64,000 nucleotides of DNA from an uncultured Lachnospiraceae bacterium (GTDB lineage: Bacteria > Bacillota > Clostridia > Lachnospirales > Lachnospiraceae), in contig CAKNHF010000015.1 of assembly GCA_930972465.1 (NCBI GenBank), forward strand, positions 1 through 64,000. Direction: 5' to 3'. The position numbers and the translations under genes are program-made. Each line of letters opens with the position of its first letter. Position 1 is the first letter of the stretch. This document shows, one piece after another, positions 4,836 through 55,693 of the stretch. The notes under the pieces are model-generated. The model saw only the letters and a program-made list of their open reading frames with translations. It ran no database searches and was not told where the DNA came from.

Positions 4836-5041
4836 TCTCCCTGTTTCTCCTTCTGATTCCTGTTGCGATCCTTCTGATATTTCCTGTACTGCCGGAACTC
4901 TTTTCTCAGATGCTTCGCCATTTCTCTTCTGGACATATCTTTGTATTTTTCTTTCACATCGCTTTTCAGCTGATCTGTCTCCATATCATGCAGGATCCAT
5001 TCCGCCACGTCCTCTTCCTTCAGTTTATATTTATCCAGCAT
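4832..5041 (-). CDS. Small hypothetical protein, basic and helical
   Basis: A 69-residue, highly charged protein (DVKEKYKDMSRREMAKHLRK..., Lys/Arg/Glu rich), probably mostly helical, with no signal peptide or membrane segment. Its stop overlaps the start of the next gene by 4 nt, suggesting translational coupling. No family was recognised. Confidence 0.55.
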   Translation of the reverse strand: MLDKYKLKEEDVAEWILHDMETDQLKSDVKEKYKDMSRREMAKHLRKEFRQYRKYQKDRNRNQKEKQGE

Positions 5042-49107: not shown

Positions 49108-49304
49108 TCCGGAAGCTTTCCCGAAACGGGACAGATTCGAGATACAGATTAAAAGAAGCATATCTCTCTGATATATCCAGATATGCAGATCATGGAATAC
49201 GAAATTCCATTGAAAAAACGGTTTCCTGATTTACAGTACCATCTTCTGTGTTCTTTACTTTAACGTCTTCCATTCAATTCGTCAACGGGATCTCAAAAAG
49301 AAAA

Positions 49305-49336
49305 CTGCACAAAATTCGTTTCTGAATTTTGTGCAG
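49305..49336 (-). terminator. Terminator of the T-box operon
   Basis: Perfect arms CTGCACAAAATTC and GAATTTTGTGCAG (49305-49317, 49324-49336), followed by TTTTCTTTTT on the minus strand, 18 bp after the YkvI-like stop. Confidence 0.88.
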
Positions 49337-49353
49337 CACTGCCAGTAGAATGT

Positions 49354-50517
49354 TTAATATTCTGTCGTTTTCGTGTCAAATCTTGTGACGATCATATGTA
49401 CAATATACGGAATCAGTATCACCGGAATCGCCAGGTATGCGATGGCGCTGTAGGCCTTCTGAATCAACGTCAGCAGGCCGAACTGAGCGATGCCGAAATC
49501 AACAATGCAGCACACAATTGCCGCAATAATTTCCTTTCTTGAGACATTAAATCTTTTCTTATCTTCATTCTTTTCTTTCTCATCTGTCCCCGGCTCGCCG
49601 CAGACACGCTTCACCATTGCAGCCACCATGTTAACTGCGGTTGAAACCGCGCCCAGGATGATCAGAATAGAAATCAGCGGAGTCATGAAGGAAGCTCCTA
49701 CCCCGTTCTGTACCATAAACAAAGTCGGCACACTCTGATCCGCCGCGCCCGGATCCGTATAGACTGTCATCAGCCCCAGGACCACCATAAGCATCATCAG
49801 CGAGTTGACCACGAATCCCACTCCCATGCTCTTCACCGCATCCTTCGGCCTCTCAAACGATTTTGCATGCTGTACGAACACTGCAATGTTGGAGAGCTGG
49901 AACGTTCCGTACAGGAATGCGGAGTACAGGGCGTCTCCCAGCGGAAGCTCCGCTGCAGTCATGCTGGACACGGCATCCCGGATCCCGGAAAATCCGGAAA
50001 TAATATTCGGGATATACACAATCAGCAGTCCTGCAATAATGCAGACGGACAGCACTGACGCAACCCGACGAACCAGATCAGTGCCGAAAATCGCCACGAT
50101 AAAGATGAACACACCGATCAGGAACGTACAAAACAGGTACGGCAGGCCTGTCAGCTCACTCAGGGTCGCTCCCCCTGTGGCAAACGCCACTGCCGGCGCC
50201 ACGCACATCACGCAGATATACAGCACCTCGAACAGGTTGGAGAAAATCGGAGCAAATTTTCCATAGAACGCATTATTATAGGAACGGTAATCATATACCT
50301 CATGCTTTCTTGCAAACCGCAGACTGTACGCAAAAAATACAGTGTTGTAGAGCATCGCCAGGACCGGCATAAGAAGGCACCATGCCCCGTATCTCACAAA
50401 ATAACTGTAGATCTGCGCCCCGGAGGCGAATCCGCCTCCGAAATGGGTCGTAAACCATACAAAGGATACTCCAAGTATGATCGCTCCTGTCTTTCCTGCT
50501 CCTTTATTATTCTTCAT
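49354..50517 (-). CDS. YkvI-like membrane transporter (COG3949)
   Basis: A 387-residue protein with ten or eleven predicted helices, distantly related to the LeuT-fold amino acid transporters. VSFVWFTTHFGGGFASGAQI in the first helix is characteristic of YkvI proteins, whose substrates are unproven. A hydrophilic Lys/Glu-rich loop (EPGTDEKEKNEDKKRF) separates the last helices. It overlaps the alcohol dehydrogenase by 11 nt and is therefore under the same T-box. That control by an aminoacyl-tRNA sensor implies an amino acid or derivative as substrate. Confidence 0.82.
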   Translation of the reverse strand: MKNNKGAGKTGAIILGVSFVWFTTHFGGGFASGAQIYSYFVRYGAWCLLMPVLAMLYNTVFFAYSLRFARKHEVYDYRSYNNAFYGKFAPIFSNLFEVLYICVMCVAPAVAFATGGATLSELTGLPYLFCTFLIGVFIFIVAIFGTDLVRRVASVLSVCIIAGLLIVYIPNIISGFSGIRDAVSSMTAAELPLGDALYSAFLYGTFQLSNIAVFVQHAKSFERPKDAVKSMGVGFVVNSLMMLMVVLGLMTVYTDPGAADQSVPTLFMVQNGVGASFMTPLISILIILGAVSTAVNMVAAMVKRVCGEPGTDEKEKNEDKKRFNVSRKEIIAAIVCCIVDFGIAQFGLLTLIQKAYSAIAYLAIPVILIPYIVHMIVTRFDTKTTEY

Positions 50518-51613
50518 TGTCTCTTCCCACTCTTTCTTTCAGTCTGTTCATTGCCTCTTCCAGCATTTCTCTCGTCACTTTATAAGGATAATGAGCCACA
50601 TCTGACATATCCGGGATGCGCTCCATACACTCTTCCCACTGTTCCTCCGTGATCTCGATCTGCTCCAGAGATACCGGAAGGTCTACTGCCTTGTTCAGGT
50701 GATATATCTTTTCAAACTCATCATACTGCCCATCCACCAGAAGAGCCAGCAGGATCCCGAAGCCCACTACTTCTCCGTGAAGATGTCTCTCCTCGATCAC
50801 CGGATAGGAGGTCATTGCGTAGAAAACAGCGTGAGCCAGACCGCTGTTGTAATCAGGGGTATAATCCTTTGTCAGGAAAATGGAGGCAATGCCCGTCGTC
50901 ACAACGATCGCCAGAACGACCTGTTCCACGTCATAAGTACAGAGTCCCTTTTTGTGGTCCTCCAGCGCTTTCGGGCCGTACTCGATCAGCGGATCACAGC
51001 ACATCCGGCTGACCGCAACACCCAAAGCCGTGAAATGCTCCAGTCTCTCATCTCTCGACGAGATAGTGGCCTCATAAAATTTCGCATAGGTATCACCGAT
51101 TCCGGCCCACATATACTGGCTGGGAGCCTTGGCGATGATCTCCGTATCAATGAAAGAGTGCATCACCGGCCGCACAAAGAAATGCGGTTTCAGGAAGGTT
51201 CCGTCATCGTTGTACATGATGGAGACCGAAGTACATGCAGAACAGTTGGACGCGATGGTCGGGAATGCAAAGACCGGCTTGTCATCGGTAATACACAGAC
51301 ACTTCACCGTATCCAGAGCCTTGCCGCCTCCTACGCCGAAAACCATGTCCGCCTCCTGGTAAAGAGGCATCTGACGCAGTTTTTCCACCGTCGCGTAAGT
51401 GCAGTTTTCCCCGTAGATCTCTTTTCCGATGATCTCAAGGCTGGTCTGCTTTACATAAGATTCAATCTTGTCATAAGCGGCTGCCAGAGCTTTCCTCCCG
51501 CCGATCACAAGGACTTTCTTTCCATAGGATTCGCACACCGGCCCGATCTTGTCGTAGATCTTATCGCCGATGGAATAATTCGGAAGATGTACTTCATAGT
51601 TCTCAAGTTTCAT
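50507..51613 (-). CDS. Iron-type (group III) alcohol/glycerol dehydrogenase family protein
   Basis: 368 residues. The N-terminal Rossmann part has VFGVGGGKALDTVKCL (the GGGS/K-x-x-D NAD-binding motif near residue 95). The metal-binding region is in the C-terminal helical domain, with the metal Asp in WAGIGDTYAKFYE and His ligands in AHAVFYAM and ERHLHGEVVGFG. The family reduces aldehydes or ketones or oxidises polyols. AAAGGAGA precedes ATG 51613. It is the first gene behind the T-box leader, so its expression should rise when one amino acid, probably tryptophan, is limiting. Confidence 0.87.
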   Translation of the reverse strand: MKLENYEVHLPNYSIGDKIYDKIGPVCESYGKKVLVIGGRKALAAAYDKIESYVKQTSLEIIGKEIYGENCTYATVEKLRQMPLYQEADMVFGVGGGKALDTVKCLCITDDKPVFAFPTIASNCSACTSVSIMYNDDGTFLKPHFFVRPVMHSFIDTEIIAKAPSQYMWAGIGDTYAKFYEATISSRDERLEHFTALGVAVSRMCCDPLIEYGPKALEDHKKGLCTYDVEQVVLAIVVTTGIASIFLTKDYTPDYNSGLAHAVFYAMTSYPVIEERHLHGEVVGFGILLALLVDGQYDEFEKIYHLNKAVDLPVSLEQIEITEEQWEECMERIPDMSDVAHYPYKVTREMLEEAMNRLKERVGRDNEE

Positions 51614-51663
51614 ATCTGTATCTCCTTTCCATCATACGGGACCCGGACCGTATTCTACAGACA

Positions 51664-51978
51664 ACAAAAAAGCCCTTGTCCCTCACAAAAACATTGCAGG
51701 GACAAGAGCGTTCATCCAATAAAAACTCCTGCGGTGCCACCCGGCTTGACGCGGTCTATCCGCATCCTCTCATGCATACAATCATATGCTTTCTTTGATA
51801 ACGGAGTTTAAATCTCCGGCTCGCCTACTCAATCTTTCAACTCGCCCTCAGAAGCCCATTCACCTCAGTTCCGTCATACCGCGCTCCCACCGCCCGCAGC
51901 TCTCTGTTCGTTACAATTCGCCTGTAATCTCTGTGATGCATCTGCTGAAGTTACTTGCTCTTCCTCATCAGTTTGATA
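51664..51978 (-). promoter_or_regulatory. T-box riboswitch, candidate tRNA-Trp specificity
   Basis: The leader carries the T-box sequence GGGTGGCACCGC (51742-51731) and a terminator (CTTGTCCCT / AGGGACAAG, 51675-51706) with six T. Stem I has AAGTAA on its 5' side and GTGAATGGG on its 3' side, flanked by pairable GAAG and CTTC. In this alignment the specifier codon following GAA is TGG (51858-51856), followed by a purine. The T-box residue C in TGGC expects a G73 discriminator base, as found in bacterial tRNA-Trp. The uncharged tRNA would stabilise the antiterminator and switch on the dehydrogenase/YkvI operon. Confidence 0.88.
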
Positions 51979-51980
51979 AC

Positions 51981-52009
51981 ACTTTACCACTGGAAATCAG
52001 AAATGTCAA
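51981..52009 (-). promoter_or_regulatory. Promoter of the T-box operon
   Basis: TTGACA (52009-52004), 17-bp spacer, TAAAGT (51986-51981) on the minus strand, just upstream of the leader. Confidence 0.75.
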
Positions 52010-52054: not shown

Positions 52055-53047
52055 TTATCTTACCGGAGGTAATGGCCAATGGTTATGGAACTGATCAAAT
52101 GGCTGTCCATGGAAAAAATACAGATCTGAATCTTCCGGGTCCGTCTGGAAAAGATCCACCCGGCGGACCCGGCTGTCATCATAGGTTTTGTAATAATACG
52201 CCCCGGTTTCCGCATTCACGCAGCAGGAATACGTGGTAATATCATAAGTCCCGGCTTCTGTGACCACCGCTCCCCGGACCATCGCCACACTGTCCAGGAT
52301 GTGGAAAAACTGGGACACATTCGCCTCTTCCTTTTCCGGCGCCACTGAATTCCATTTCAGAAACGCAGCGCGGATAAAACGGGATGCGGAGGACGCGTCT
52401 CCCGGCAGCCCCATCCCGCCCATTCCCTGAGCGTATGTCTTCAACTGCAGCCTGTCCGAAAAACGATTCTCCGGATTCCCGGCGCTTAATCCCAGATAAT
52501 TGTTCAGATTCATCCTGTGATAATCAAAGGGCGGATTGTTGGTCAGAACACCAATCGGATTATCATAGACTTTCAGCCCCTCTCTTACCGCCTCAAGAAC
52601 CAGGCACTTTTCCCGGTCCGCCAGCATCCAGTGCAGCGGCGCGGGAGGCATCTCCTGTGCAAATGCCGTATCGACTATCCTCATCTCCTCAAGATATCCC
52701 GCCGCCTCCGACACAGAGGAACACTTCCCCAGGAGCCAGGGAATCACTTCAAACGAGGCAAGTTCCAGGCCCGCCCCGTCTGCCTTCTGATAATATGCAT
52801 TTCCCGGGAAATTCAGTCCTGCCATGCACAGGCCCTTCTCATTGACCGCTTCCGCGTACAGCGGAAACCGGTCGTCCGCGGAAGCCATGCCGATCATGGC
52901 ATAATGGCGCTTCTCCCATTCTGTATTCCGGAATTCCAGAGAGAAATTTCTTGGAGTGACCACTACCTGTTCCCCGAAAGAGCAGTCAAGATCAAGATTT
53001 CTTCCGAAATAAAAATCTTTATTTTTATAAGCAATACATGTACACAT
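52055..53047 (-). CDS. bsh: Bile salt hydrolase (choloylglycine hydrolase family)
   Basis: A 330-residue Ntn hydrolase that releases glycine or taurine from conjugated bile acids. After Met removal the nucleophile is Cys2 (MCTCIAY). GRNLDLDCSFGE supplies the Arg and Asp of the active site, PRNF follows, and GVLTNNPPFDYHRMNLNNYL carries the conserved Asn. These segments match bile salt hydrolases more closely than penicillin V acylases. There is no signal peptide, so it is cytosolic. The frame opens at 53188, but GGGAGG precedes ATG 53047. It follows an HTH gene by 46 bp on the same strand. Confidence 0.9.
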   Translation of the reverse strand: MCTCIAYKNKDFYFGRNLDLDCSFGEQVVVTPRNFSLEFRNTEWEKRHYAMIGMASADDRFPLYAEAVNEKGLCMAGLNFPGNAYYQKADGAGLELASFEVIPWLLGKCSSVSEAAGYLEEMRIVDTAFAQEMPPAPLHWMLADREKCLVLEAVREGLKVYDNPIGVLTNNPPFDYHRMNLNNYLGLSAGNPENRFSDRLQLKTYAQGMGGMGLPGDASSASRFIRAAFLKWNSVAPEKEEANVSQFFHILDSVAMVRGAVVTEAGTYDITTYSCCVNAETGAYYYKTYDDSRVRRVDLFQTDPEDSDLYFFHGQPFDQFHNHWPLPPVR

Positions 53048-53093
53048 AGCAGACCTCCCGCTTCTTCTATAGTATTGTACATTCGCTCTTCGC

Positions 53094-53333
53094 CTATTCT
53101 TCAGGCGGATTTTTCTCCCTTTTCTTCTCATCCGGCCAATACTCCAGAATATCACCCGGCTGGCATTCCAGCGTTCTGCAGATCGCATCCAGCGTCGAAA
53201 ACCGAATGGCGCTGATTTTTCCTGTCTTGATCTTAGACAAATTCACATTTGAAACCCCGACCTTTTCCGAAAGTTCCTTTAAGGACATCTTCCGGTCAGC
53301 CATAACACGATCTAATCTTAATATAATCGCCAT
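53094..53333 (-). CDS. Small Cro/CI-type HTH regulator (YozG-like)
   Basis: 79 residues, almost entirely an XRE helix-turn-helix: MSLKELSEKVGVSNVNLSKIKTGKISAIRFSTLDAICRTLECQPGDILEY. It is encoded 8 bp after a DUF2975 membrane protein, a conserved pairing in Firmicutes thought to form a membrane-linked regulatory unit. The bile salt hydrolase follows directly, making it a candidate target or merely a read-through neighbour. Confidence 0.88.
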   Translation of the reverse strand: MAIILRLDRVMADRKMSLKELSEKVGVSNVNLSKIKTGKISAIRFSTLDAICRTLECQPGDILEYWPDEKKREKNPPEE

Positions 53334-54446: not shown

Positions 54447-55571
54447 TTATTTCACTTTAATCAGCTCATACTCCCGGCTTCCAAGTCCGATCTTCTCTGC
54501 ATGCTCAAGACAGGTTTTCCACTCGCTCTCCGGAGTCGTATTCACAAAATGATCATGGTGGTCGCAGAAATCTTCCTTATGAATCTGTTCATCCAGAAGA
54601 CTCCCCCGTATCGGCTGCTGCGCATTGCATGCGTCCGCGCATGCCTGATCCAGGGCCACCGGGTCAAAGCTCGCAAACATTCCCACATCCGGCAGAATCG
54701 GCATATCGTTTTCCGCATGGCAATCGCAGTAAGGCGACACATCAATAACCAGATTGATATGGAATGCCGGGCGTCCGGATACAACAGCCTTGGTATACTC
54801 TGCCATCTTGATGTTCAGATCCTGCACCGCGGAAGAATTCTCATTGTAGATCGCATCAAAATTGCATGCTCCGAGGCATCTTCCGCATCCCACACATTTT
54901 TCATGGTCGATCACGGCCTTCTTCTCCGGGAAAGAAATAGCTCCGTGAGCACAGTTTTTCGAACAGACGCGGCATCCGACACAGACCGACTGATCCACGG
55001 TCGGTTTTCCGCTGTTATGCTGTTCCATCTTGCCTGCGCGGCTTCCGCAGCCCATGCCGATGTTCTTGATACATCCTCCGAATCCTGCCATCTCGTGACC
55101 TTTAAAATGGCTGAGACTGATAAACACATCCGCATCCATGATGGCACGCCCGATCTTTGCCTCTTTCACCAGTGTTCCTCCCTCCACAGGGACACTGACG
55201 TCGTCAGTCCCCTTCAGGCCGTCTCCAATGATGATATGGCACCCGGTGGAGAGCAGATTGAACCCGTTCTCATATGCGGCGCTTAAATGCTCCAGTGCGT
55301 CCTTGCGCCTGCCCACATACAGTGTGTTGCAGTCCGTCAGGAAGGGACGTCCTCCCAGCTCTTTCACCACGTCCGCGACCGCCTTCGCATAGTTTGGACG
55401 GAGAAAAGAAAGATTCCCCGGCTCTCCGAAGTGAATTTTAATCGCTGTCATTTTCTTCTCAAAATCAATGTCCCCTATCCCGGCCTTTCTGATCAGTTTC
55501 TTCAGCTTTTCCGGAAGATTCGTGCCCGGAAGCGCACGCATGTCTGTAAAATAAACTTTTGATTTTTCCAC
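54447..55571 (-). CDS. DUF362 domain protein with two 4Fe-4S clusters
   Basis: 374 residues. The DUF362 fold starts with KVYFTDMRALPGTNLPEKL and includes GGRPFLTDCNTLYVGRRKDA. Two ferredoxin motifs near residues 190-225 are CVGCRVCSKNCAHGAI and CVGCGRCLGACNFDAI. Proteins of this type are likely redox enzymes of unknown substrate. The ORF can be extended to a GTG at 55601, but AAGGAG stands 8 nt before the GTG at 55571. It is monocistronic with a strong terminator at its stop. Confidence 0.85.
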   Translation of the reverse strand: MEKSKVYFTDMRALPGTNLPEKLKKLIRKAGIGDIDFEKKMTAIKIHFGEPGNLSFLRPNYAKAVADVVKELGGRPFLTDCNTLYVGRRKDALEHLSAAYENGFNLLSTGCHIIIGDGLKGTDDVSVPVEGGTLVKEAKIGRAIMDADVFISLSHFKGHEMAGFGGCIKNIGMGCGSRAGKMEQHNSGKPTVDQSVCVGCRVCSKNCAHGAISFPEKKAVIDHEKCVGCGRCLGACNFDAIYNENSSAVQDLNIKMAEYTKAVVSGRPAFHINLVIDVSPYCDCHAENDMPILPDVGMFASFDPVALDQACADACNAQQPIRGSLLDEQIHKEDFCDHHDHFVNTTPESEWKTCLEHAEKIGLGSREYELIKVK

Positions 55572-55693
55572 TTTGTCTTCTCCTTTTCTATTCTTCCTCA
55601 CAGACCCGGAAAAATTAAACTTTTCCGGTCATCTTTATTACTATATCACAGGTGCCCTGCTCTTTAAAAGAATCCTTTTTACCAATCCCACGT

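Follow-up and report, generated by a model that had tools for sequence, protein, structure and literature searches.

T-box leaders of the tryptophan class (Rfam RF00230), known from trp operons and, in the parts of PMC9382623 considered here, from the trpXYZ genes of S. suis, combine a Stem I with a UGG specifier, a UGGC T-box sequence and a terminator. A leader with the same four features is found in a 64,000-nucleotide stretch of an uncultured Lachnospiraceae bacterium (contig CAKNHF010000015.1, positions 1 to 64,000; hereafter the window), and the RNA itself is of a known kind. Unlike the described members of its class, it controls an iron-containing alcohol dehydrogenase (Fe-ADH or ADH) and a transporter of predicted APC fold rather than a synthetase, a trp biosynthesis gene or a TrpX transporter, and it scores below the Rfam gathering cut-off. 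The genomic context and the active site of the dehydrogenase suggest that the operon probably salvages tryptophan from indole-3-lactate through the two proteins, under the control of the Trp T-box; an indole compound is the best guess for the substrate.

The leader RNA (51695..51977; all features of the operon lie on the reverse strand) matches RF00230 over the full length of the model (positions 1-219 of 219; 74.2 bits, E-value 2.9e-16). A plain Rfam scan of the whole window at the gathering threshold lists no T-box, as the leader falls short of the gathering score of 93, which is an automatic listing threshold and no anatomical feature. Eight of the 15 T-boxes found by RF00230 in the window genome also score below 93 bits, and three of these low-scoring T-boxes precede TyrS-, MetS- and IleS-like genes. 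Stem I (51833..51978) consists of basal, middle and apical helices that covary in an alignment of 49 leaders, 47 from ADH operons and two from other Trp genes of the window genome: 93.5% of the cells in the three helices pair, with 134 double-change cells compared to 34.5 in shuffled and no more than 37 in slid controls. The sequence of the specifier loop is GAA-UGG-G. The TGG codon (51858-51856) follows GAA and precedes a purine (G51855), exactly as the earlier note had placed it, and a five-pair helix with compensatory changes in all five pairs (columns 18-22/129-133) comes next. Since this covarying helix begins right after the purine, UGG occupies the position that TBDB assigns to the specifier, 2-4 nucleotides from the end of the bulge (PMC7778990, in the passages used here). 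The codon is thus fixed as UGG by covariation at the base of Stem I, and the reading of the leader as a Trp T-box is near certain. The script that selected the 49 rows searched for ATGG plus A or G after AGAGA, so the invariance of UGG among them is partly built in; a reading without the UGG requirement printed all 62 leaders found among the relatives of the ADH, 61 of which passed a later filter, and the remaining one (L081) has UGG both at this place and by the model. The window Stem I also carries 27 extra nucleotides (about 51934-51908) that include a small inverted repeat and another CAGAGA and that none of the 48 other leaders has.

The T-box sequence GGGUGGCACCGC (51731..51742) contains UGGC (51739-51736), which can pair with the GCCA end of a tRNA-Trp whose discriminator base is G73. 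This base, predicted in the earlier note from the C of UGGC, is present in the four tRNA-Trp genes found in relatives. The discriminator is taken from relatives because the tRNA-Trp of the window genome, which is 86% complete, was not found by ARAGORN on 16 of the 42 candidate places given by two pattern searches; there is no tRNA inside the window itself. UGGU replaces UGGC in nine of the 62 leaders, a variant covered by the 46% of Trp T-boxes with UGGU in TBDB (PMC7778990, same passages). The leader terminator (51666..51709), a hairpin followed by six T, has a folding energy of -23.9 kcal/mol and a z-score of -6.62, and none of 200 shuffles is as good. Together with the Rfam match, this upholds the T-box motif and terminator that had been noticed earlier in the leader. 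The antiterminator is aligned by the Rfam model; its stretch taken alone has a z-score of -0.79, and 40 of 200 shuffles fold as well.

The arrangement recurs among relatives of the ADH. A scan of a genome collection with the ADH alignment gave 253 relatives, the best 80 of which were kept; many are close kin from chicken-gut genomes, and the closest named one, in a Mediterraneibacter genome, is 97% identical (L045). A T-box motif on the right strand is present in 62 of these best 80, in 58 of them just before the ADH/transporter unit and in four before a unit of TrpXYZ-like genes and ADH, and the specifier is UGG in all 62. The transporter gene adjoins the ADH in 70 of the 80 loci, in either gene order. 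A TrpXYZ-type ABC transporter takes the place of the APC-fold protein in four (L112, L115, L117, and L123), and neither type lies beside the ADH in six (L063, L069, L075, L087, L124, and L120, the last at a contig end). Seven further ADH-TrpX loci with Trp T-boxes came from the surveys of the family (L139 and L141, the latter T-box recognised by Stem I only), the class (L231 and L232) and the phylum (L256, L257, and L271). The expectation of the earlier note that homologous operons would share the specifier holds for every T-box-bearing locus of the 80, and fails for the 18 that lack the motif and for paralogous cassettes with other specifiers.

Two other Trp T-boxes are found in the window genome, one before a run of genes read here as trpEGDCFBA (trpA by Pfam) and one before a gene for a TrpB-like enzyme (NF009057, 688 bits, cut-off 366). 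A model of Stem I (R1) ranks the three Trp leaders top in this genome with 111.8, 99.8, and 73.9 bits, the next hit having 28.1; the model was built from the Stem I rows, these three leaders included, so this ranking is partly given by construction. The ADH-transporter operon is the third tryptophan-related unit of a Trp T-box regulon. The Trp T-box before the TrpB-like gene (G000:C31:27871-28146, L011) closely resembles that of the window and stands in a genome with a full trp operon as well.

Sister ADHs are found behind T-boxes of other amino acids. Isoleucine T-boxes (AUC) precede the sister ADHs of L219, L220, and L234, the ADH standing alone behind the T-box in L219 and L220, while leucine T-boxes precede sister transporter-ADH units in L130 (CUG) and L228 (CUA). 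The locus L234 contains both kinds: a Leu T-box (CUA) with a transporter gene, then an Ile T-box (AUC) followed by genes for another transporter, for a branched-chain aminotransferase (PRK13357, 494 bits, cut-off 307) and for the ADH. All six Leu and Ile T-boxes (L219, L220, two in L234, L130, and L228) have UGGU, matching A73 tRNAs, and in L130 a tRNA-Leu gene (loop CAG, A73) lies just downstream. In a maximum-likelihood tree of 70 selected ADHs with a midpoint root, all 33 rows with a Trp T-box fall inside one clade of 49 (support 98/93), and the three Ile and two Leu rows belong to a separate set of 12 (82/19; 99/92 for 11 of them). This separation of the other specifiers from UGG in the tree favours amino-acid-specific roles over accident. 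A class survey with an Ile-type ADH as the query gave no new cassettes.

The enzymes closest to the window ADH in description are the glycerol dehydrogenase GldA and hydroxycarboxylate dehydrogenase A of E. coli (HcxA, YbdH). The ADH (50507..51613; 368 residues) is of the GldA/HcxA type by alignments and by its AlphaFold2 (AF2) model; it matches PF00465 with 69 bits (cut-off 31.3), and its metal ligands D174, H261, and H279 are invariant in 36 rows. The AF2 model (predicted local distance difference test, pLDDT, 94.4) has GldA as its best PDB match, with a template modelling (TM) score of 0.87. Similar to GldA (PDB ID: 5zxl, 8k1g, and 1jq5; TM about 0.87) in fold and in the metal ligands Asp, His, and His, the window ADH differs in its genomic setting of amino acid metabolism and in scoring below the family cut-offs (198 bits with a cut-off of 336 for PRK09423, and 157 with a cut-off of 700 for PrpdilGlycDhGldA). 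It differs also in the active site: the Asp with which GldA binds its substrate is replaced within the IASTD loop by C124, and this position is Cys in 36 of 36 rows. HcxA likewise is a GldA-like Fe-ADH with Cys at this position of the substrate loop. Its gene adjoins ybdL, a methionine transaminase gene, and belongs to an amino acid regulon: MetJ represses ybdH along with methionine salvage genes (PMC3228920, in the part considered here, whose table entry for ybdH, 101 (79), is taken as genes with, in brackets, metboxes). HcxA differs in its sequence (30% identity), in being controlled by a repressor rather than a T-box, in having no transporter pair in sight, and in grouping with GldA on long branches of the ADH tree, outside the clade of the window ADH. 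The score of the window ADH against the HcxA profile (PRK10586) is 152 bits with an equivalog cut-off of 429, and it stays below the cut-off of every named family matched. The same Asp position is changed to Asn in a double mutant of the GldA-type polyol dehydrogenase of Bacillus coagulans, titled 'acquired D-lactate dehydrogenase activity' (PDB ID: 6csj); this laboratory mutant, compared by its PDB title and sequence, has Asn where the window ADH has a natural Cys. On the evidence of context and active site, we propose that the window ADH is an NAD(P)-dependent 2-hydroxy-acid dehydrogenase, with indole-3-lactate as the putative substrate. Twelve positions separate 27 Trp-side from five Leu/Ile-side ADHs, and seven of them lie near active-site residues in sequence (S129, V130, and I132 near C124; T175, Y176, and A177 near D174; G258 near H261). 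These positions might shape the substrate pocket.

Aminotransferase genes are found beside other ADHs. Among 31 other ADH loci, 18 of them outside the tree's Trp clade and 13 from the phylum survey (counted because they lack TrpX and T-box, and not placed in the tree), an aminotransferase gene on the same strand adjoins the ADH in eight; four of these (L143, L144, L211, and L212) represent one conserved cluster of one family. The domain is PF00155 in seven (the four just named, L264, L268, and L269) and PF01063 in L234. Five of the eight loci also have a membrane protein gene adjoining the ADH; a Gate domain (PF07670) is present in the two proteins tested (L211 and L264), and the others are alike by sequence. 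A cluster of aminotransferase, Fe-ADH and Gate-domain-type membrane protein genes is conserved in five genomes (L211, L212, L216, L217, and L264), in which no T-box was found. In L142 (1501-3965), the gene after an ADH with 49% identity encodes a histidinol dehydrogenase (PF00815); no T-box was found there either.

The transporter (49354..50517; 387 residues) matches no Pfam or NCBIfam model, so that 'YkvI-like', taken over from the earlier note, is a provisional label. A search with its AF2 model (pLDDT 88.7) by Foldseek gave BasC, ApcT, LAT1, AdiC, and LeuT, and also Nramp and CodB, with a probability of 1.00 and TM scores of about 0.6-0.7; the predicted structure has the LeuT/APC fold and places the protein in the APC superfamily. 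Relatives of at least 43% identity in the family survey lie beside a gene for a 2-hydroxy-acid-type enzyme or an ADH of the window type in 16 of 19 loci (GlcD-like in nine, HadC-like in two, dehydratase-activase in one, and ADH in four, the window included). The other three are L020, L021, and L026, and both L020 and L026 reach a contig end. In the nine GlcD-like cases (L023-L025, L027-L031, and L040), the gene for the FAD oxidase is directly beside a transporter relative of about 43-46% identity. We propose that the window protein imports a 2-hydroxy acid or an amino acid.

A mechanism can be outlined from these features. When tryptophan is short, uncharged tRNA-Trp with its G73 would base-pair with UGG in the specifier loop and with UGGC in the T-box bulge, and this pairing would stabilise the antiterminator and allow transcription into the ADH and transporter genes. 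The transporter may then take up either tryptophan or indole-3-lactate, its 2-hydroxy-acid analogue and a compound secreted by other gut bacteria. Using NAD(P)+, the Fe-ADH would oxidise indole-3-lactate to indole-3-pyruvate, from which a housekeeping aminotransferase would form tryptophan. The Leu and Ile sister cassettes would follow the same route with 2-hydroxyisocaproate and 2-hydroxy-3-methylvalerate. The wider proposition, for which the case appears evenly balanced, is that Firmicutes have a modular, T-box-governed route from 2-hydroxy acids to amino acids, the substrate of which can be read from the specifier codon, and that this route is assembled from a YkvI-like APC protein or a TrpXYZ-like ABC transporter, an HcxA-like Fe-ADH and sometimes an aminotransferase.

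Acquisition of an amino acid from its 2-hydroxy acid fits the data better than catabolism, since scarcity of the amino acid is the condition under which a T-box activates its genes, since relatives of the ADH are linked to aminotransferases and relatives of the transporter to 2-hydroxy-acid-type enzymes, and since the sister cassettes carry Leu and Ile T-boxes. For the same reasons, a role in handling an aldehyde or alcohol derived from tryptophan, as put forward in the earlier note, is now very unlikely, with indoleacetaldehyde or tryptophol as examples of the substrate; so is the export of a catabolic product. The name of the Fe-ADH family speaks for such a role, and gut Clostridia do make indole compounds; however, the T-box would switch such catabolism on under tryptophan scarcity, and the partners of the operon in its own genome are tryptophan biosynthesis and a TrpB-like enzyme. 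It is also distinctly unlikely that the ADH works in the opposite direction, reducing indole-3-pyruvate to indole-3-lactate for redox balance or for export by the transporter. Dehydrogenases are reversible, and some transporter relatives have as neighbours genes of the 2-hydroxyacyl-CoA dehydratase type, which belong to amino acid fermentation; yet the reduction would drain the tryptophan pool under starvation, exactly when the T-box induces the operon, and the Ile operon with its branched-chain aminotransferase fits synthesis better.

A further explanation would have the transporter import tryptophan as such, with the ADH as a housekeeping enzyme, for example a glycerol dehydrogenase, that is loosely linked and shares the operon. 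TrpX and APC transporters are indeed known T-box targets (PMC9382623 and PMC2494555, in the parts considered), and GldA is the best match of the ADH by both profile and structure. Against a loose linkage, the ADH pairs with two unrelated transporters, it occurs behind a Trp T-box with neither a YkvI-like nor a TrpX-like neighbour in five of the 80 loci, and it stands alone behind the Ile T-boxes of L219 and L220; moreover, the substrate Asp of GldA is replaced in every row and both GldA profiles score far below their cut-offs. We regard this explanation as unlikely.

Several observations weigh against salvage from indole-3-lactate as the role of the operon. The glycerol dehydrogenase match of the ADH, by structure and by profile, is one of them, and so are the five T-box-bearing ADHs without an adjacent transporter gene of either type (L063, L069, L075, L087, and L124). 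No aminotransferase gene is present in the Trp operons looked at. The tested GlcD-like and HadC-like neighbours, one of each, score below their equivalog cut-offs (327 of 568 and 436 of 700 bits), and the TrpX-like proteins tested match NF041285 at 190-276 bits with a cut-off of 390, so tryptophan is not assured as their ligand. The Leu and Ile codons come from applying the Trp rule to Rfam alignments and have no covariation of their own behind them; L130 is the only locus that allows a second reading, UGG one base on. L219 and L220 are of one genus and L228 and L234 of one family, and neither the Ile nor the Leu rows form a single clade in the ADH tree. A complete trp operon is present in the window genome. 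That the cassette compensates for auxotrophy is not supported, as trpA is equally common in the presence of a close ADH: nine of the 11 genomes of the family that carry an ADH at 49% identity or above have trpA, compared to 161 of 200 in the whole sample, in a survey in which only matches with an E-value of 1e-71 or better were examined in detail. Finally, 15 of the 18 relatives without a T-box motif have ample upstream sequence.

Among the other motif-less loci, L079 has no upstream sequence and L056 and L120 have little. A search of all 18 with the model R1 gave no convincing Stem I, the best hit (L108, E-value 0.069) being downstream of the ADH, and an Rfam search of four of them (L102, L106, L118, and L121) found no T-box. 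In L046, whose ADH is 96% identical, the sequence upstream of position 5001 keeps the terminator and shows decayed remains of the T-box sequence. A script for leader peptides with at least two Trp codons, run on 17 of the 18 loci, gave three matches (L046, L103, and L106). By eye, a short hairpin with a T-run can be seen before the first gene in L085, L090, L103, L104, L106, and L116, and before the ADH in L032; perhaps these hairpins constitute a different attenuator. A tRNA-Trp gene (anticodon CCA, G73; L106:3413-3483, forward strand) lies about 340 nucleotides upstream of a T-box-less transporter-ADH operon on the same strand.

A dehydrogenase-transporter cassette that recurs under T-boxes for Trp, Leu, and Ile did not turn up in the literature searched, outside which stand two major T-box surveys, nor in the passages considered of PMC3228920, PMC7778990, PMC9382623, PMC11477304, PMC3766115, and PMC2494555. 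The word dehydrogenase is absent from the main text of the 2008 T-box survey (PMC2494555), the supplements being outside that check. No paper in the literature searched joins a T-box with tryptophan and YkvI, or a T-box riboswitch with an iron-containing alcohol dehydrogenase.

The specifier codon in effect names the amino acid served by each cassette. A single RNA feature thereby assigns candidate substrates both to a group of Fe-ADHs for which glycerol dehydrogenases are the nearest named models and to transporters without a match in Pfam or NCBIfam. Should the proposed role be correct, the uncharacterised YkvI-like transporters would gain a substrate class. Indole-3-lactate and the branched-chain hydroxy acids, which are generally regarded as end products, would then be amino acid sources exchanged between gut bacteria, which could feed on hydroxy acids secreted by their neighbours.

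Upstream of the leader, a sigma-70-type promoter, TTGACA-17-TAAAGT (51981..52009, 10 of 12 positions matching), is the best of seven promoter-like sites in a pattern scan for which 3.5 (standard deviation 1.9) are expected by chance. The ADH and transporter genes overlap by 11 nucleotides, and a likely intrinsic terminator of the operon (49304..49337) follows them, with a 14-pair stem and a T tail seen as a pattern match. Such terminator-like sites are no commoner than chance in the pattern scan (three found, 2.5 expected), and the leader terminator is absent from that list. Directly upstream of the promoter, on the same strand, is a bile salt hydrolase gene (52055-53188; NF038245, 429 bits, cut-off 350). 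A DUF362/ferredoxin protein (by Pfam) is encoded near the cassette at 54447-55601, also on the reverse strand, and a protein with a similar N-terminus is encoded near the ADH cassette of L122 (2270-3373, reverse strand).

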